Shown one piece after another: positions 21,794 through 35,615 of a stretch of DNA of 36,048 bases. A model generated the notes under the pieces. That model made no database searches, was not told the DNA's origin, and saw only the letters and a list, made by a program, of their open reading frames with translations. Both the position numbers and the translations under genes were made by a program. Position 1 is the stretch's first letter; the number at the start of each line of letters is the position of its first letter. The stretch comes from a virus: the IMG/VR virus record IMGVR_UViG_3300010885_018955, positions 1 through 36,048 of that record. One strand, written 5' to 3'.

Positions 21794-22828
21794 TCAGTCC
21801 TTCAACACGCCCTGGAGGGAGCAGTTGCTGATAGTCATGTTTCCGGCCCACCCGATTATCTGAACCATGGCATCCTGATTGATGCTCATGCGATCATCGC
21901 CAATGGGAACGCAGTTGCGGCGCGAATGCGGGCGGTAATGCAGATACTTGCTGTTCAGCATCCACAGCCGATTGGCCGGCGAACCGCCGACCGCACCAGC
22001 GCCCGCCGCGCCGAACGTGTTGCCGTCCGTGGTCGTGCCCTGGAACCCGCCGTCCAGAACAACCTTCATGCGGCGCCCGGCGCCCATGTAGTCGATGTTG
22101 GGGAACTCGGCCTTGGTCAACGGGCTGTTGGTGTCTTCGATGCGCTGGATCGCTTCGAGCGACTGCACGAAGTAATTGAACCAAGTGTTGCCCGTGATCG
22201 CGATATCCGGCCCATCTGGGCCGCGCATCAACTGCATTCCCAGGGCGTTCATGTAGTTTCGGATGTTCGCGCTGCTGACCGCGGCGCCGCCATCGGCCAC
22301 GCCCGCGTAGACCTTGTTCTGCCAGAACGGGAACAGCGCCCGGTCAATGCCGCCAACGGTGCCAGAGGTCGGCGTTGCCGATACCAGCGTCGCCAGCCCG
22401 CCCATCTGCCCCGTGATCGTGCCATCCGAATACATATCGTAGGCGAGGCCGTTGGACATGGTGTCATAGGCGTTGCTGATCCGAGACCGCAGCAACGGAA
22501 TGATCTGTTCGGCGCCCGCGTTCTGCAACTGCTCCAAGCCGGAGATGCTGATCGCCACGGCTGCCTGACGGATCGCGAACTCGGCCGCGCTGATCGTGTC
22601 GGACGGTTGGACGTTCAGCAGTTCATAGCCGGCATAGCGGGTGAACGTGGTGTTGTTCGCATAGTTCAATTCCTGCACGATGGTGCGACCACCATCGAAA
22701 GTGTCCTTGAACTTGCGCTGGCTCAGTTGAACCAGGATAGCGTTGTTGCGTGTTACGTTGTCAGCAAGCTCGCCCGTGCGATTGCGCAGGGTGGTCGTGA
22801 CAATCTCGCTCAGGTTTGGCGAGGCCAT
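21794..22828 (-). CDS. Major capsid protein
   Basis: 344 aa. It starts MASPNLSEIVTTTLRNRTGE, the N-terminal arm of a podovirus coat family, then FKDTFDGGRTIVQELNYANN and TFTRYAGYELLNVQPSDTIS, which form the E-loop and spine region of an HK97 fold. The helix SISGLEQLQNAGAEQIIPLL and the loop MSNGLAYDMYSDGT follow, and a strand-rich C-terminal half contains NSKYLHYRPHS. GGAG stands 9 nt before the ATG, suiting high expression. It follows the scaffold gene. The N-terminal arm is echoed in the small protein at 31929-32195. Confidence 0.85.
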   Translation of the reverse strand: MASPNLSEIVTTTLRNRTGELADNVTRNNAILVQLSQRKFKDTFDGGRTIVQELNYANNTTFTRYAGYELLNVQPSDTISAAEFAIRQAAVAISISGLEQLQNAGAEQIIPLLRSRISNAYDTMSNGLAYDMYSDGTITGQMGGLATLVSATPTSGTVGGIDRALFPFWQNKVYAGVADGGAAVSSANIRNYMNALGMQLMRGPDGPDIAITGNTWFNYFVQSLEAIQRIEDTNSPLTKAEFPNIDYMGAGRRMKVVLDGGFQGTTTDGNTFGAAGAGAVGGSPANRLWMLNSKYLHYRPHSRRNCVPIGDDRMSINQDAMVQIIGWAGNMTISNCSLQGVLKD

Positions 22829-22852: not shown

Positions 22853-23884
22853 TCATGCCACCTGACCCCCGATCACTGCCCGTAGCTCGTCATCCAGCGA
22901 CCTATCCTTCCACGATCCGTGCCCGTTCATCGAGCCGCCCGGCGCGCTGTCCCTGACAGACGCGGAGGCGGCACGCGCGGCACGTGCCCTGGAAGTATCG
23001 GCTTTTCGGATTTCGTCTTGCGCGGCCTTGCGCTCTGCTGCAAACCGTTCCTCACGCAACTTGGGATGGGCTAAAACAGCCGCATCGTATGCCTCTTTCA
23101 TTGTCCGTTCCGGGTTGGCCGTCATCAGATGCCCCATATCCTTGCGGACGACATCGAAATGCGGATAATCAGAATTGGCACGAAAGGCGGCAATGTCTGC
23201 CATGAGTTTCGCAGTTTCGGCGCGATCGCGCTCAGCTTTGGCACGATCGCTTTCCTCAAGCATCCGATCGACGCGCGGATCGCGCATCTCGACCGGACGA
23301 CTGGGGGCCGCTGGGGTAGCAGGGGGATCAGTCAATAGGTCTCTGAGGTCGTATCCCACCGCTGCGGCCATCTGCACCAAGGCATCGCGCGGATTGACAC
23401 GAACGGCTTGTTCCCATCCCAACAGGCGCTCAAGCGCCTCGGCCGGGTGGGTTATACCTGCATCGCGCATCCGCTGCTCATGCGGGGCGTAGGCTTGTCG
23501 GTAACGGTCGATCTCTTGCGTTTCGGTTGCCCGTTCTACCAAAGCCGCGTGCATGTCGCGCTCTCGGCGGGCCACAGTTTCCTGCGCCTCGAGAGAAAGA
23601 GCATTCCACGCGGTTTCCGACCAAGCGTCCGGCCGGTCTGTGCCGGCGTCCGCCTTGGGCTGGTCGGTGTTGGTGTCGTCCTTGGCCTCGGCCGGCGCGT
23701 CGGCGCTCTCTGCCTTGGCAAATCGTCCGGTTTCGTCGCGCTTGGCGTCGGTGCCAGCGGCGGTTTCGTTGTCCGGGTCCCGTGCGACCTGTTCATCCCA
23801 CGCAGCGCGCAGGACGCTTTCCAGGTCTTCGCCGGGGGATGCGGCTTCGGTGGGTTCAGCGGGGGCGGATGTGGTTTCGCTCAC
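22853..23884 (-). CDS. Scaffolding protein
   Basis: 343 aa from a GTG overlapping the previous stop (GTGA). The N-terminal third is acidic and low-complexity (PAEPTEAASPGEDLESVLRA). The middle contains TAWNALSLEAQETVARRERD, YRQAYAPHEQRMRDAGITHP and LGWEQAVRVNPRDALVQMAA. A charged helical region, EESDRAKAERDRAETAKLMA, follows, and the C-terminus is basic and Ala/Arg-rich. This pattern, with the W..L....Q....RR..D and NP.dAl..lA words, and its position between portal and coat genes, fits the internal scaffold of P22-like and related phages. It would direct coat assembly and leave the procapsid. Confidence 0.72.
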   Translation of the reverse strand: MSETTSAPAEPTEAASPGEDLESVLRAAWDEQVARDPDNETAAGTDAKRDETGRFAKAESADAPAEAKDDTNTDQPKADAGTDRPDAWSETAWNALSLEAQETVARRERDMHAALVERATETQEIDRYRQAYAPHEQRMRDAGITHPAEALERLLGWEQAVRVNPRDALVQMAAAVGYDLRDLLTDPPATPAAPSRPVEMRDPRVDRMLEESDRAKAERDRAETAKLMADIAAFRANSDYPHFDVVRKDMGHLMTANPERTMKEAYDAAVLAHPKLREERFAAERKAAQDEIRKADTSRARAARAASASVRDSAPGGSMNGHGSWKDRSLDDELRAVIGGQVA

Positions 23885-24267: not shown

Positions 24268-26592
24268 TCACGCGCGGGCCGGCTTGTCGGCGACCTTCTC
24301 CTTGATGTCCAACTCCCGCGCCCGCAACGCCAGATCAGCCGCGTCGAGCATCTCTTGGTGCGTCTGCGCCCGATACCGCAGATCAGCGTCACCCGCTTCG
24401 ATCTCGGCCGATTGCGCGGCCAAAACGTGTTCCGTCATGTCCTGCGCATTTTGCGCCTCGGATTGCGCCGCTTCGTGCTGCAACTGAACGCCGGCAATCT
24501 GCGCTTCGATCTGCTTTATCTGCAACTGGACCTGGGCAATTTGCAGATCGGCCTGCGATTTCATCTGCATCGACTGCATCCGCATCTGTTCGACCTGCAT
24601 CGACGCTTGGCTTTCAGCCTGCTTGATCTGGATATCCGATTGCGACTTCGCGGCGGCGGCCTGCGCCTTGATAACCTCGGGATCGGGCGGCGGCGGTTGC
24701 TGCGCCATCATCTCCATGTGCTTCGTCAGGCGCGTGATGGTGTCTTCCAACACGGTCTCCAGTTCCAGGCCGATCGGAAACCCACGCACGCCAAACATCA
24801 GCATCTTGCCCAGCGCCGGGATCAGGATCGGCGCCAAGGTCGGCGGGATCAATAGCGCTTTTTCGATGAACGCGCTCACCGCCGCCAGGAACTCAACGCG
24901 CGCCTGCTTTTGCTCCAGTTCATCGGCCTGGATCGTGGACTTATCCTCGATCTCAATGCGGAAATCACGCAGCCGGTTGTTCCGCAGAAGCGAGACGGCT
25001 TGGTCGAACATCGGAACCGGTGGTGGCATGGCGGGCATGGGGGATGGCGCACCCATACCCGCCACTCCGGCCAGTGGGAGCCTTTCCGGGGCCGCACTGC
25101 CCGGCGGTGTTCCCATCTGCATCGGGGGCGGCCCACCCATCGGCGGCCCGCCATTGTGCCCCATCATGCTATCTCGCTCGTCCTGCGCAAGCTCGCTCTG
25201 ATCCCAGCAGGACATCTCCCGCAACGTCTCAGGCCCAAAATGCTCCGCGATGATCTCGCCCGTCATGCGCAGGCAGTCGGTCACATATTCGGCCATTTGC
25301 GCCTGCCGATCACTTAGGCGCAACGTGGCATACTTGCCCTTGGTCCGTATCTCGGTGGCCGTCTTGTCGCCGCTGGTGGTCTCCGCGCCCCGGATCACGT
25401 CACTGATGCCCGTGATCTCGTAAAGGTCGCTTTTGACCTGCGCGCGGGCGTTCAGCAGGCTTTCGAGCGTTTGCACCATGTCCAGAGTAGGCAGGAAATC
25501 GATGGAGCCTTTCAGCCCCTGCTTCTCAGCAAATTCCAGCCAGTCCGTGACGGCTACCAACTGATTTTCGCCGGTATCGTTCAGCAGGTTGGCGATCTCG
25601 GCGAACTGCGAGTTGTAGACGCCGGCCACCTTGATCGCCTTCGTGACGTTCCGAATGCGCTCGGTCAACTCATTCAGTTGCTCAGCCTGCGGCCCGTATT
25701 CCTGATAGTCCGGCACAGGGACCAAAGAGCTATCCGTCAAAGTGGCAAACAGCGGGCGCGGTGTCGGGAAAAAATCGCGTAACCCTAGCGGATCGTCGCG
25801 GCTGTCCAGTATCTTGTCGTAGTCCTGCGCCAGCCAATGCACCTTGCGCGTGGCGATATCCCAAACCTCATACACCCGCGCCCGGTCGAAAATGCTATGT
25901 GCCTCCTCGGGCCGATGGGCGTTCTTCTGCCGGTCAGGCATCCACACCAATGGCACATCGCGGAACTGTTCTCCGAACCGCTCCACGCCATCTTCCATCG
26001 TCATCCGCACTTCGCGCGCCACCCACGTAACGCTTTCCCAGTTGGGAGATGACGAATGCAGAAAATCCCGGCGCCGGACGAAATCCCAGCAAACCTCCTC
26101 CTCCTCGACGCGCTCGCCTTGCTCCTCGCTGTCTTCCGTGATCTGCCCGACCTCGACGGTATCGGCTTCATACCGCGCCCACAGCACGCCGCGCCCATAC
26201 ATCAGGTAGTCATCGCGAACCTGCTTCAACTTGCGATCCAGTTTGCCCGCCTCGGCCGTGCTTTCGATGCACCGCCGCAGGATCATCGACGCCGCACGCC
26301 CCACCGGGTCGCGGTCGGCATACTTGCGCGCCACTACCGCGACCGGCGGCCTGGCATAGATCGCCGGCTTCAACGTCTCGACGTTGGACCACAGGATGCT
26401 GAACGCCACTTCGCGGTTTTGGAACGCCTGCTTCCCGCCCCGGTAGATGCGTTCGATCATGTCGCACACACGCCACCAATCGTAGCAGTCAAGGCGAGCC
26501 TGATCGAACTCGGCAAACCAGCGCGCGGCCGGCGTGGCAAAGTCAGCCGGGCTTTCGACCTGTTGCGCCATGTTGCCGGGGCGGTCGCTCAT
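24268..26592 (-). CDS. Portal protein (P22-like)
   Basis: 774 aa, similar to the 725 aa of P22 gp1. Typical stretches are FDQARLDCYDWWRVCDMIER, NREVAFSILWSNVETLKPAI, RKYADRDPVGRAASMILRRC and DYLMYGRGVLWARYEADTVE in the wing, and later QLNELTERIRNVTKAIKVAG and TEIRTKGKYATLRLSDRQAQ in the crown/stem. The C-terminus holds a long Gln/Ala/Met-rich helix (about residues 645-725, e.g. QADLQIAQVQLQIKQIEAQI), the barrel that projects into the capsid in this group. It forms the dodecameric DNA channel and docks the terminase. The GNMA start overlaps the small gene before it. Confidence 0.86.
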   Translation of the reverse strand: MSDRPGNMAQQVESPADFATPAARWFAEFDQARLDCYDWWRVCDMIERIYRGGKQAFQNREVAFSILWSNVETLKPAIYARPPVAVVARKYADRDPVGRAASMILRRCIESTAEAGKLDRKLKQVRDDYLMYGRGVLWARYEADTVEVGQITEDSEEQGERVEEEEVCWDFVRRRDFLHSSSPNWESVTWVAREVRMTMEDGVERFGEQFRDVPLVWMPDRQKNAHRPEEAHSIFDRARVYEVWDIATRKVHWLAQDYDKILDSRDDPLGLRDFFPTPRPLFATLTDSSLVPVPDYQEYGPQAEQLNELTERIRNVTKAIKVAGVYNSQFAEIANLLNDTGENQLVAVTDWLEFAEKQGLKGSIDFLPTLDMVQTLESLLNARAQVKSDLYEITGISDVIRGAETTSGDKTATEIRTKGKYATLRLSDRQAQMAEYVTDCLRMTGEIIAEHFGPETLREMSCWDQSELAQDERDSMMGHNGGPPMGGPPPMQMGTPPGSAAPERLPLAGVAGMGAPSPMPAMPPPVPMFDQAVSLLRNNRLRDFRIEIEDKSTIQADELEQKQARVEFLAAVSAFIEKALLIPPTLAPILIPALGKMLMFGVRGFPIGLELETVLEDTITRLTKHMEMMAQQPPPPDPEVIKAQAAAAKSQSDIQIKQAESQASMQVEQMRMQSMQMKSQADLQIAQVQLQIKQIEAQIAGVQLQHEAAQSEAQNAQDMTEHVLAAQSAEIEAGDADLRYRAQTHQEMLDAADLALRARELDIKEKVADKPARA

Positions 26593-30148: not shown

Positions 30149-30468
30149 GCCTCATACCTCCAAACGGCGGGATCGTCGTCCGATCGCGCGCCAATCTTCC
30201 ATTCCAGCCAGACGAAAGCATCATTTACGCGGCGACCATCCGATCCACTTATTTCGTTCACGCCAATCGGCGGCCCAGCATTCCTTTCATGCCGAACAGC
30301 GATAGGGTGATCATTTTTCTCATCCTTGATTTCGAATACCAACGCCGCGCCGTCGATGATATGCCCCGGCAGCGTGTCGAACACGCTCACCAGTCTGGGA
30401 TTACCCTTGATCCCAAGACGCTCCACCAAATCGGCATAGGATAGCGTGACGACGGCTTTTCGGATCAT
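30145..30468 (-). CDS. Unknown 107-aa protein after the large terminase
   Basis: It starts MIRKAVVTLSYADLVERLGI with its ATG overlapping the terminase stop. A beta-rich domain follows (SVFDTLPGHIIDGAALVFEI and HPIAVRHERNAGP), and the C-terminus is Trp/Asp-rich (AFVWLEWKIGARSDDDPAVW). It does not look like a membrane protein. Its role is unknown, possibly linked to packaging because of its place. Confidence 0.55.
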   Translation of the reverse strand: MIRKAVVTLSYADLVERLGIKGNPRLVSVFDTLPGHIIDGAALVFEIKDEKNDHPIAVRHERNAGPPIGVNEISGSDGRRVNDAFVWLEWKIGARSDDDPAVWRYEA

Positions 30469-31865
30469 TGCCTACGCCTCCAATTGTCGCCGCTCATCTT
30501 GTCAAGGTCCCGCATTGTCGCCTGATTAGCGCGCCCTACGGACAATATCCGATCCGCCGGCTTTTCCGGCGCTTTGACCTGCTCCCGCCAGCCAATGGCG
30601 AGGTAGCGGAAAGCATCCGCTCCATGGCTTGCCCAATTGTGCAAAGGTGTGTCCGAGAAGCGGCTCATCTTCTCGTTCCACTCTTTCTGGTAAGCCTTCA
30701 AAGCCTCCAAGCCCTGTTGCACCGCCGGAGAGGAGTTGAACTCGCAAAGAGGGATTAGGAGACGCGCCGAGTTGATGCCATCCATCAGCTTGTGATCCGG
30801 CACCAGTCGCGGGTTCAGCCCCAGCCTCGTGATCGTCTCGACGCGCGTTCGGTTGGCTGTCCATTCCGTCACCTTCGCATCATGCGGGAGCCACGTTATG
30901 CCCCGCTTGTAGCCGCGATCCTGCACGAACTTAACATAATGTGCCGCATCCTTGCCATGGTTCTCGTAATAGTCAACCACGCGAACCCGGAACCCGTCCG
31001 TCTGGAAGAACCAGATCGCCGTGCTGTCCCGCATCCCGATGTCCCAGGCGTCGTGCACCGGCATGGTGGGGTCGATGGCGAGCGGTCGCACCCGGCCGTC
31101 GCGCTCCGCCGCTGCAAGCTCCGCGCCCCAGTAGGCGCCGAGGATCGCGGCGTCAAACGAACACATATATTCCTGCTCGAACAGCGCATGGCCCATGTCC
31201 TCGCCATACTGTCCGATCAACTCCCGCCGCTCAGCCGCCAGAGCCTCGGGCGTGAACACCGTGGTCTGATCAGCCCGCGTCACCTCCGCGAACGCCTCGG
31301 GATCGTCGGCGAACGTGTCAAGCGTCCGCTTGGCGTGGTTCTTCCCTCGGCTTGTCGTGATAAACAGCACCCATCCGCCGTTTTCCCGCAGGATCGGCGA
31401 CAGGTAAGCCCACGCCGCCGGGTTGTTGATGGCCCATTCCGAAATCACGATGCCGATCGGTGGTGAGCCGACCAAGGCATTGAAGTTGTCGCTCCCCACC
31501 ACCTGCCACGACGAGCCGTTCTTGAATCGAATGAACATCTCGTTTTCGCGGGTGACGGCTCGCAGCGCCTCCGGGAACGCCTCGTCGATGCGCCTCATGC
31601 CGGTGCGGGGGTTCACCGCGTCCCAGATGGCTTTCCGGGCTTGGTTCGCCTGGGGTAGCATGTGCCAGTAGGTGCCGACGCGCATGTGAGCTTTGATGGC
31701 GGTCATGTGCAGGCCGACATCGTCTTTGCCCCAGCGGCGATGCGCAATTTCACACGCCCGGGTGCCGCCGTTCATGAGGTAACGCCACAACCGCATCTGA
31801 TCGCGGCGCGGCTCCCAACCGTTCGCCGGTAGGGTTAGGTCATGAGTGGTGACGTCAAGTGGCAT
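30465..31865 (-). CDS. terL: Terminase large subunit
   Basis: 466 aa from the ATG at 31865; a TTG 24 nt upstream is less likely. The ATPase motor shows the arginine-rich Walker A AHRRWGKDD (41-49), Walker B IGIVISEW (137-144) with catalytic E143, and coupling motif LFITTSRGKNH (167-177). The nuclease half has D275 in WDIGMRDSTAIWF, D329 in LPHDA and D417 in GADAFRYLA, the usual acidic triad of the RNase H-like domain. It would cut concatemers and pump DNA into the procapsid through the portal. The HRRWGKDD form is shared by many podoviruses. The 25-aa peptide gene overlaps its start by 11 bp. Confidence 0.92.
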   Translation of the reverse strand: MPLDVTTHDLTLPANGWEPRRDQMRLWRYLMNGGTRACEIAHRRWGKDDVGLHMTAIKAHMRVGTYWHMLPQANQARKAIWDAVNPRTGMRRIDEAFPEALRAVTRENEMFIRFKNGSSWQVVGSDNFNALVGSPPIGIVISEWAINNPAAWAYLSPILRENGGWVLFITTSRGKNHAKRTLDTFADDPEAFAEVTRADQTTVFTPEALAAERRELIGQYGEDMGHALFEQEYMCSFDAAILGAYWGAELAAAERDGRVRPLAIDPTMPVHDAWDIGMRDSTAIWFFQTDGFRVRVVDYYENHGKDAAHYVKFVQDRGYKRGITWLPHDAKVTEWTANRTRVETITRLGLNPRLVPDHKLMDGINSARLLIPLCEFNSSPAVQQGLEALKAYQKEWNEKMSRFSDTPLHNWASHGADAFRYLAIGWREQVKAPEKPADRILSVGRANQATMRDLDKMSGDNWRRRQ

Positions 31866-31932
31866 TGGCCAGCAAATACAGAGCGGCAAACACGCCGGAC
31901 GCCAGGATGATGGTGACGGCGGCGTTCGTCAT
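31855..31932 (-). CDS. 25-aa membrane micropeptide in the terminase junction
   Basis: The frame encodes MTNAAVTIILASGVFAALYL and ends LANAT. It has one clear transmembrane helix and almost no other sequence. The ATG overlaps the stop of the previous gene (ATGA) and its TGA falls 8 nt inside the large terminase gene, so it exactly fills the gap between the two. The terminase gene has no ribosome site of its own, so reading of this peptide may deliver ribosomes to it. It could be a real micropeptide or only a coupling device. Confidence 0.45.
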   Translation of the reverse strand: MTNAAVTIILASGVFAALYLLANAT

Positions 31933-32195
31933 GGCCGTCTCGACAAGCTCGCCAGCACCGCATTTTGTTCCAACATCATCCTGCCAATCTCCCCCGACCT
32001 GTTCCGCAACGTCGTCTCTACGATCTCAGAAAGCGTCGGCGTGTCAGCATCCAGCAGCATCCGCAGCGCGTGGATATGCTCCTGAATGTCCGCCTTCGTG
32101 GATCGGCGCGGGTTGAACCCACGCGCCAGCCGCCGCGCTGCGGTCTCGGCCAGTTTCTGGCGTTCGGCGATCAGTTCACGCTTGGTTTTTCTCAT
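31929..32195 (-). CDS. Small protein with a copy of the coat-protein N-arm
   Basis: 88 aa from the ATG overlapping the previous stop. The first 50 residues are basic and helical (MRKTKRELIAERQKLAETAA, HIHALRMLLDA). Residues 55-88 read LSEIVETTLRNRSGEIGRMM and LEQNAVLASLSRRP. The start of the major coat protein (residues 6-39) is LSEIVTTTLRNRTGELADNV and TRNNAILVQLSQRK. By eye 19 of 34 positions are identical with no gap. The DNA is clearly diverged, so the copy is old or selected at protein level. It may bind the scaffold or portal like the coat arm, or regulate packaging. The family is otherwise unknown. Confidence 0.65.
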   Translation of the reverse strand: MRKTKRELIAERQKLAETAARRLARGFNPRRSTKADIQEHIHALRMLLDADTPTLSEIVETTLRNRSGEIGRMMLEQNAVLASLSRRP

Positions 32196-32449
32196 GCCAC
32201 CACCATCGGCTTCACCATATCCCGAAACCACCTCGGCCGAAGCTCCAAATACGGATCAACCGCACTGATCCAGCACTCACGCCCATCGCCCGCGTGCGTG
32301 CCCCACAGGCCGAGGATCACATCCGGATTGCCGGCCTCCATCATGCGGTAGACCCGGTCGCGCGGGCACTGCTTGATGTCCGTCCAGTCCGGTGCGAGCG
32401 GGCGCCAGGCGCCGTCATCTCCGAAGTAGCCGGCGTAGAGGTCAGGCAT
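32192..32449 (-). CDS. Unknown 85-aa protein upstream of terminase
   Basis: It starts MPDLYAGYFGDDGAWRPLAP and continues with RVYRMMEAGNPDVILGLWGT, then ECWISAVDPYLELRPRWFRD. It is rich in Trp, Asp and Pro, with a compact mixed fold likely. It overlaps the gene before by 8 bp and the gene after by 4 bp. No family was recognised. Its place between the terminase subunits suggests a link to packaging or to regulation at the start of the late operon, but that is inference. Confidence 0.55.
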   Translation of the reverse strand: MPDLYAGYFGDDGAWRPLAPDWTDIKQCPRDRVYRMMEAGNPDVILGLWGTHAGDGRECWISAVDPYLELRPRWFRDMVKPMVVA

Positions 32450-32939
32450 TGTAGTCCCTCACCACCCGCTGATGCGCTGCATCGTGCGTAGCACGCTCGG
32501 AGAGGCGGGCTTCCGCCACTGACTGCCACTCCGCCTTATCCTCCGGCGCAAGCTGATCCCATGGCGTCCGTCCGGGCAACCGCGCATGAACCGCCTTCCC
32601 CTCGGGAAACATCTCCTCGGCCGGCGCGACTGGATCGGCGTCGCCAGGATCGGGGTCTACATGCGCCACCTCATTGGGTAAGCGGACCGCTTCCGCGATC
32701 TCCTCCATTTTCTTGACTGCCTTGACCCACAACTCAGACCTCGCCACCAGCCACCCCACCGCATACACCACGTCATCGGCCGCCGGGTTTATGGTGGTAA
32801 GCGCCGCCGTGAACGCCTCCAGGTCGCCACCAAGGCTGCCGTCACCGTGCAGCGTTACCGCCGCGTCGCCGAAGCGGAGTTCCACGGTTTTGTAGGCGGG
32901 TTGGGGCAGCACATCATCATCATCCATTGGTGTCATCAT
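32442..32939 (-). CDS. Unknown 165-aa protein next to small terminase
   Basis: It starts MMTPMDDDDVLPQPAYKTVE; the ATGs at 32936 and 32927 are also possible. A strand region, VELRFGDAAVTLHGDGSLGG, is followed by helices, AFTAALTTINPAADDVVYAV and VARSELWVKAVKKMEEIAEA. A Pro/Asp linker leads to a C-terminal PWDQLAPEDKAEWQSVAEAR, a short helix motif seen at the end of various phage proteins. It overlaps the small terminase gene by 20 bp. The function is unknown. Confidence 0.6.
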   Translation of the reverse strand: MMTPMDDDDVLPQPAYKTVELRFGDAAVTLHGDGSLGGDLEAFTAALTTINPAADDVVYAVGWLVARSELWVKAVKKMEEIAEAVRLPNEVAHVDPDPGDADPVAPAEEMFPEGKAVHARLPGRTPWDQLAPEDKAEWQSVAEARLSERATHDAAHQRVVRDYNA

Positions 32940-33372
32940 CCTTCCCGGTGAAATTCTTAATCGTCACGTTGATCGGCTGCGTCTTGGTTTCTTCGTCCGG
33001 CTGGCGATCGCGCCACTCTTGCGGCCTGCGGTTCTTTAACCAGAAGATGCCAGCGGTCGTATCCGGCGCCATGTGCTCTCGGTAGGGAACCACCAACGGA
33101 GAACCATCGGAGTTGAATATCTTGACGGTATCGTAAGTGTAGCCCGTGGCTTTTGCATACAGGCTTCGCTCAACCCTGTCGTCTGCTACGTCTTTTCCGG
33201 CTTTTAGGGCCTCGCAAAAACTTTGATGGCTGATCTTCCACCGATACAAGGTGGCAATGTGAACATCGAAGAAATCGGCGAGTTCAACATCCGTTGCGCC
33301 CAACAGGCACAATTTGCGCGCCTGCTCATCATACTTGGGGCGATACAGCGTCGGGCGACCGGCCTCAGCCAA
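32920..33372 (-). CDS. terS: Terminase small subunit
   Basis: 150 aa from a TTG with GAGG 8 nt upstream. The N-terminal DNA-binding part is GRPTLYRPKYDEQARKLCLL then GATDVELADFFDVHIATLYR with WKISHQSFCEALKAGK, the classic helix-turn-helix of small terminases. The oligomerisation part RVERSLYAKATGYTYDTVKI and DTTAGIFWLKNRRPQEWRDR follows, ending in an acidic/Lys tail. GRPT.Y.P.....A..LC.LGATD.ELA.FF.V and FWLKNRRP..WRD are highly typical. It recognises the packaging site and loads the large subunit. The two subunits are separated by four small genes, more than usual. Confidence 0.9.
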   Translation of the reverse strand: MAEAGRPTLYRPKYDEQARKLCLLGATDVELADFFDVHIATLYRWKISHQSFCEALKAGKDVADDRVERSLYAKATGYTYDTVKIFNSDGSPLVVPYREHMAPDTTAGIFWLKNRRPQEWRDRQPDEETKTQPINVTIKNFTGKDDDTNG

Positions 33373-35414: not shown

Positions 35415-35506
35415 GGGTGGATTATAGAACCTAATAAGCGCCAATCAACCTATAAGTTTCCGTTTCCTCCGTTTCCTCCGTTTTTTCCAACCCTTCGTAA
35501 GTGAAA

Positions 35507-35527
35507 GGTATGTTAATATAACATACC
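35507..35527. repeat. AT-rich perfect palindrome, 9-bp arms
   Basis: GGTATGTTA and TAACATACC separated by ATA. It is the left of two short palindromes in the centre of the nested element. Size and symmetry suit binding by a small dimeric protein such as the ribbon-helix-helix product encoded 90 bp away. Confidence 0.65.
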
Positions 35528-35530
35528 ATA

Positions 35531-35547
35531 TATGTGTATAACACATA
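35531..35547. repeat. AT-rich perfect palindrome, 7-bp arms
   Basis: TATGTGT and ACACATA separated by ATA. The 3-base centre is the same as in the neighbouring palindrome, whose arms it partly resembles (TATGT against TATGT). The two may be paired sites for one protein. Confidence 0.6.
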
Positions 35548-35615
35548 GATACATATAGAAAAGAGTGGCCAAAAACGGAGGAAACGGAGGAAACGGAAAT
35601 GTTCACTATTCATTT

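Follow-up and report, generated by a model that had tools for sequence, protein, structure and literature searches.

The window analysed here is the whole 36,048-nucleotide stretch of the IMG/VR virus record IMGVR_UViG_3300010885_018955. Its minus strand carries, in order, the terminase small subunit (TerS), a 165-residue protein, an 85-residue protein, the small gene under study, the terminase large subunit (TerL), further small genes, an 850-residue protein, the portal, a 118-residue protein, a scaffold-like gene, and the major coat protein (Table 1). The small gene encodes 88 residues on the minus strand from an ATG at 32195 to a stop at 31929, the positions given for it in an earlier note on this DNA, and its ATG overlaps the stop of the 85-residue gene within the tetranucleotide ATGA at 32192 to 32195. 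The same note placed it between the terminase subunits. This holds for its general location, but the gene does not adjoin TerS, since the 165- and 85-residue genes intervene.

TerL is about 50% identical to one open reading frame (ORF) in each of the contigs L009, L016, and L242, and its match to Terminase_6N is weak, with an E value of 0.009 that lies below the cut-off. Family profile searches gave no clear family for the 850-residue protein between the small genes on the TerL side and the portal. Near the end of the window, positions 35457 to 35599 are approximately 73% identical to their own reverse complement over about 147 columns, forming an imperfect long palindrome that was seen through contig L003.

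The small protein modelled alone by AF2 from its single sequence is all-helical, with a pLDDT of 62, which is low confidence. No relatives of its N-terminal part (residues 1 to 51) were found in viral contigs, phages, plasmids, Pfam, NCBIfam, PADLOC, or the PDB, and the idea that this half represents a widespread family was rejected, as it lacks relatives in all sets searched.

Table 1. Features of the terminase and head region of the window
Feature	Position	Strand	Basis or remark
TerS	32920..33372	-	phrog_309, E 1.1e-49
165-aa gene upstream of the small gene	32442..32939	-	without family match
85-aa gene directly upstream of the small gene	32192..32449	-	4-base overlap with the small gene
Small gene, 88 aa (basic N-terminal part and coat-arm module)	31929..32195	-	start overlaps preceding stop (ATGA)
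Orphan basic N-terminal part, residues 1-51	32043..32195	-	predicted helices 5-26 and 34-47; single-sequence AF2 model, low confidence
Coat-arm module, residues 52-87	31935..32042	-	phrog_9953 match; tblastn 1.1e-7; shuffles p ~3e-10
TerL, downstream neighbour	30465..31889	-	phrog_2472, E 2.5e-34; likely start ATG at 31865
Portal protein	24268..26592	-	phrog_12082, E 4e-172
Scaffold-like gene directly before the coat gene	22853..23884	-	position and C-terminal motif; without Pfam or PHROGs match
Major coat protein, 344 aa, HK97 fold	21794..22828	-	phrog_9953, E 1.5e-90; AF2 and Foldseek against the PDB
Coat N-terminal arm, source-type segment of the copy	22715..22825	-	model helices 6-27 and 30-37

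The coat-arm copy and its counterpart in the coat protein

A tblastn search of the record with the small protein retrieved only the protein itself and the N terminus of the coat, the latter matching residues 52 to 87 with 56% identity (E of 1.1e-7). The Smith-Waterman score between the small protein and the coat is 99, compared with a mean of 27.7 (SD 4.4, maximum 57) over 2000 shuffles, which corresponds to a Gumbel p of ~3e-10, and 44 is the highest score of any other window ORF. A profile comparison could have exposed the resemblance as chance; instead, phrog_9953, the coat family (major head protein), matches residues 52 to 87 at profile positions 6 to 41 (E of 0.02), and the similarity stands far above the shuffles. 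Chance is thus ruled out by shuffles, background ORFs, and profile matches, and the arm segment is homologous to the phrog_9953/NF033394 (podovirus major coat protein) family. The small protein is not a full-length HK97-fold coat, as only the first 41 positions of the phrog_9953 profile are matched.

The correspondence first described, between residues 55 to 88 of the small protein and residues 6 to 39 of the coat, is ungapped, with 19 of 34 residues identical, and the DNA has diverged as had been reported: nucleotide identity is 46%, and 16 of the 19 identical residues are encoded by a different synonymous codon (pS of 0.88, which is saturated, and pN of 0.42). This pattern indicates that, by its sequence, the small gene carries an old copy of the N-terminal arm of its own coat, preserved at the protein level. 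Recent duplication and assembly artefact are ruled out by the 46% DNA identity together with an identical gene in a second record. The earlier description of a coat-arm copy fused to a basic domain, predicted to be helical, is thereby borne out, as a genuine fusion within the terminase/head operon.

The AF2 model of the coat (pLDDT of 76.5) presents arm helices at residues 6 to 27 and 30 to 37, and its best Foldseek matches are the capsid proteins of the cyanophages Mic1 and A-1(L) (6j3q and 7f38). The arm is among the best-conserved 36-residue stretches of the coat (3.43 bits versus a mean of 3.14) in loci that were mostly found via the arm. The arm copies retain LSEIVxTTLRNR, and N5 and D23, both invariant in a 42-row coat alignment, are changed in the window copy. 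The coat genes of L008, L054, L066, L073, and L083 are interrupted by group I introns (RF00028), which in L008 (9721 to 9951) lies inside the conserved arm codons.

In most of 44 loci the presumed scaffold gene keeps its place before the coat gene and its product ends in a conserved C-terminal motif, S-[ILV]-[RE]-[DE]-x-[LI]-x-x-A, and in the window the C terminus of the scaffold-like gene (approximately 22856 to 22903) is likely the coat-binding element. The scaffold of SPP1 interacts with the coat N terminus and the end of the spine helix (PMC6813328), and the scaffolds of P22 and 80alpha contact the coat N-arm (PMC12005531 and PMC5644958); the motif resembles the sort of element that binds the arm in the latter two phages.

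Coat fragments on small proteins of other phages

The small gene recurs identically in L003, within a 14-kb identical stretch. The sole independent relative of the full-length arm module is found in L004, a different phage whose contig does not include the coat gene. There, an 81-residue gene (2493 to 2738) between TerL and the portal ends in the same module, at 70% identity, on an N terminus unrelated to that of the window protein; this copy matches phrog_9953 with an E value of 1.7e-4 and NF033394 weakly. The modules of the window and L004 both read PTLSEIVETTLRNRSG, and PTLSEIVETT is a variant of the arm common to the two small proteins and atypical of coats. Among 71 distinct coat arms, none departs from N at position 5 and none has E at position 11, where 70 have T and one has A. 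A Burkholderia coat arm found later, outside these 71, has T at position 5, which weakens the idea of a signature wholly exclusive to small-protein arms and makes E11 the more specific mark.

Second arm copies were absent from bacterial prophages, where 27 loci gave coat N termini only, and the match in a Burkholderia plasmid record, which is the coat with T at position 5 mentioned above, is likewise a coat protein. L065 (5347 to 5460) and L068 (5982 to 6095) each carry an arm-like frame of 38 residues that lacks a usual start codon and is flanked by a small gene and the scaffold-like gene; it is probably a remnant, or else uses a non-standard start.

About 11 groups of soil-phage contigs that share this coat family encode, close to the head genes, small basic proteins that begin with a shortened arm, MxxPxLxEIxTTTLRNR (L046, L047, L050, L054, L056, L059, L063, L064, L073, L157/L160, and L164). 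A reversed-sequence control for this search gave nothing better than an E value of 2.4. The tagged bodies are not all homologous, comprising a PSKS type with phrog_16759, DUF6496, and others; L064 and L164 bear the same tag on different bodies, and untagged homologues of tagged proteins occur in L045, L051, L062, and L083. The tagged genes of L167 and L126 are located upstream of TerL. Behind most of the short tags (L046, L047, L050, L054, L056, L059, L063, L064, and L073), AGGAG-like bases are followed by an in-frame ATG, an arrangement suggesting that each tag was joined in frame ahead of a ribosome-binding site already present and that products with and without the tag may be made. Of the distinct genomes whose sequence extends at least 8 kb upstream of the coat, about 58 in all, 9 have an extra arm copy; this rate is rough, as duplicates were merged by hand and the genomes were sampled by arm pattern.

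The N terminus of the L004 protein belongs to a family (L168 to L182 and L209 to L232) with a near-invariant, twin-arginine-like leader, RRxFL...APAIVRAESLM, followed by a C terminus that differs in nearly every phage. The C termini that could be identified are coat N-arms, a coat spine segment, a coat C terminus, and tail pieces. In L209 the C terminus matches the N-arm of the phage's own, unrelated coat (G007), and in L221 it matches the phage's own gpT-like coat (G019; phrog_371 and PF10124) in two segments, one in the N-arm and the other at the presumed spine helix. The gpT-like coat family is also matched by L230 (both segments), L225 (N-arm), and L220 (spine segment), whose contigs gave no coat gene, and L227 copies the C terminus of a coat of this type. 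For L217 the better match is an Mx8-type arm, and that to its own coat (G005) is weaker. The leader protein of L229 has tail-fibre repeats as its C terminus, and that of L231 probably ends in a tail collar domain. Several of the coat-fragment leader genes adjoin genes for DNA polymerase, helicase, or primase, a location that suggests that they are probably early.

When the C termini of the small proteins were scored against four coats, the matrix was block-diagonal, with z values of 9 to 18 within families and, for the most part, close to 0 between them. This pattern is broken by L217 (earlier numbered L172), with a z of 7.2 for the window coat and 2.8 for its own, and by a stray 3.2 for L004 against G019. 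Against a background of 167 ORF C termini drawn from ten contigs, these leader proteins occupy exactly the first five ranks, and the next z is 4.4. The check proposed in the earlier note, whether relatives keep the small gene and the coat as a matched pair, thus turned out favourably in a broader form, with small proteins carrying pieces of the corresponding coat family. Copies of coat segments recur in unrelated coat families, as judged by sequence similarity, and the window gene is not unique.

Possible roles of the coat-arm module

The reading that we tentatively favour, plausible while falling just short of probable, is that the module is a mimic of the coat arm that targets the procapsid or modulates assembly. 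As the procapsid assembles, the C-terminal arm module would bind whatever the coat arm binds, with the scaffold's short C-terminal element or an adjacent coat subunit as the likeliest partner, and binding would carry the basic N-terminal domain to the growing procapsid or inside it, or else tune assembly. It is favoured by the scaffold contacts of the N-arm in SPP1, P22, and 80alpha and by the targeting-tag principle of T4, in which a conserved capsid targeting sequence (CTS) on diverse internal proteins brings them into the scaffolding core (PMC3012670). The comparisons show a coat-derived tag on changing small bodies, recognized by sequence, that recurs in related and unrelated phages; the full arm of the window and L004 proteins and the tags of the soil phages are each shared, like the CTS, by small proteins that are not homologous. 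The copies of L221 and L230, moreover, pair the N-arm with the segment at the presumed spine helix, and those copied in L221 correspond to the coat segments that contact the scaffold in SPP1 (PMC6813328).

The earlier note had proposed several roles, of which competition for scaffold contacts is plausible by analogy with SPP1, P22, and 80alpha and with the conserved C-terminal motif of the scaffolds. Nothing specific supports its suggestions of contacts with the portal or of a tie between packaging and capsid assembly. Inhibition of rival phages found no support either, and no resemblance of the small protein to satellite proteins that redirect capsid size or to capsid inhibitors emerged from PADLOC, NCBIfam, Pfam, or PDB sequences.

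A purely scaffold-binding role leaves unexplained the leader genes of the replication region, the tail pieces, the coat C terminus, and the coat segment outside the arm. The change of N5 and D23 in the window copy also speaks against the favoured reading, as do the low confidence of the small-protein model and the single independent relative of the full-length module. An alternative that we consider unlikely for the module as a whole is a counter-defence decoy, a coat fragment that would occupy a host sensor of newly made coat without triggering it and so protect the infection. Bacterial sensors exist for a coat protein (CapRel; PMC9712102) and for a tail protein (DSR2; PMC11087589), and the probably early location of the APAIVRAESLM genes beside replication genes, the copying of several coat regions, and the tail pieces of relatives keep this reading open. 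However, the window gene lies in the terminase/head operon and is probably expressed late, with the coat itself, the window module and the short N-terminal tags use the arm only, and no sensor is known for these hosts. The decoy is thus a serious rival for the genes of the replication region and less so for the late-operon gene of the window.

It is similarly improbable that the free arm acts as a brake or a poison, competing with the coat for the scaffold and delaying the phage's own capsids or spoiling those of a relative in the same cell. Competition by a detached contact surface is feasible, as illustrated by CpmB of SaPI1, which copies the coat-binding end of the scaffold and redirects assembly (PMC5644958), and the window copy, having lost N5 and D23, may retain scaffold contacts and not shell contacts. 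Yet nothing links the gene to competition between phages, and from within the phage's own packaging operon it would inhibit its own phage unless binding were weak or timed.

Gene birth by fragment capture, with duplicated pieces of virion genes fused to an existing start region and the arm now devoid of arm-like function, is doubtful as well. It would fit the many different virion-gene pieces carried by leader-type genes and the start-less arm sequence of L065 and L068, but the codon changes of the window copy (16 of 19), with pS saturated and pN at 0.42, need selection for the protein, and matching to the corresponding coat family recurs; on the codon pattern, an inert fragment is disfavoured. 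It is hardly credible that the segment acts at the DNA or RNA level (as a translation-start region, or a site for recombination or intron homing) and not as a protein module. Group I introns do insert in relatives' coat genes, inside the arm codons in L008, and short tags at gene starts contain ribosome-binding-site-like bases, but the window copy has 46% nucleotide identity with different codons at 16 of 19 identical residues and sits at a C terminus, not at a translation start.

The working principle of the mimic, as an analogy, resembles that of the T4 targeting sequences and of CpmB, in which the opposite side of the coat-scaffold interface is copied. As in T4, a conserved short tag is carried by otherwise diverse small phage proteins, the N-terminal tags of the soil phages being the most similar; unlike the CTS, the present tag copies the coat N-arm and is C-terminal in the window, and the likeness is one of analogy. 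CpmB, taken together with the 80alpha scaffold (PMC5644958), is likewise a small protein that copies one side of the coat-scaffold interface, but it copies the scaffold side and is encoded by a satellite, whereas the window protein copies the coat side in the phage's own genome; genes for TerS, TerL, portal, and coat are all present in the record, which is so not that of a satellite. SaPIbov5 Ccm (PMC8569155) is also a second protein homologous to the coat that acts in assembly, but it is described as a satellite-encoded capsid-protein homologue, whereas the phage of the window copies the arm alone and encodes the copy itself. The model for the copied segment is most likely the role of the scaffold-binding N-arm in HK97-fold coats such as those of SPP1, P22, and 80alpha, where the arm is part of the coat itself and a detached copy is not described in the available portions of these reports (PMC6813328, PMC12005531, and PMC5644958). 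Literature searches, of incomplete coverage, turned up no account of a small protein that bears a separate copy of the coat arm of its own phage.

With more reserve, we consider it possible that several unrelated coat lineages of tailed phages maintain dedicated small coat mimics, in which a segment of the phage's own coat, usually the N-arm, is carried on changing bodies to target cargo to procapsids, to regulate assembly, or to mislead host sensors of the coat. If the module binds the scaffold or the coat, it would be a natural, transferable head-targeting tag derived from the coat arm itself, and would offer a way to tell the arm residues needed for scaffold contact from those needed for shell contact, as LSEIVxTTLRNR is kept and N5 and D23 are lost in the window copy. 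Were such mimics to recur across unrelated coat lineages, coat mimicry would count as a strategy of phages in general and not of satellites alone.
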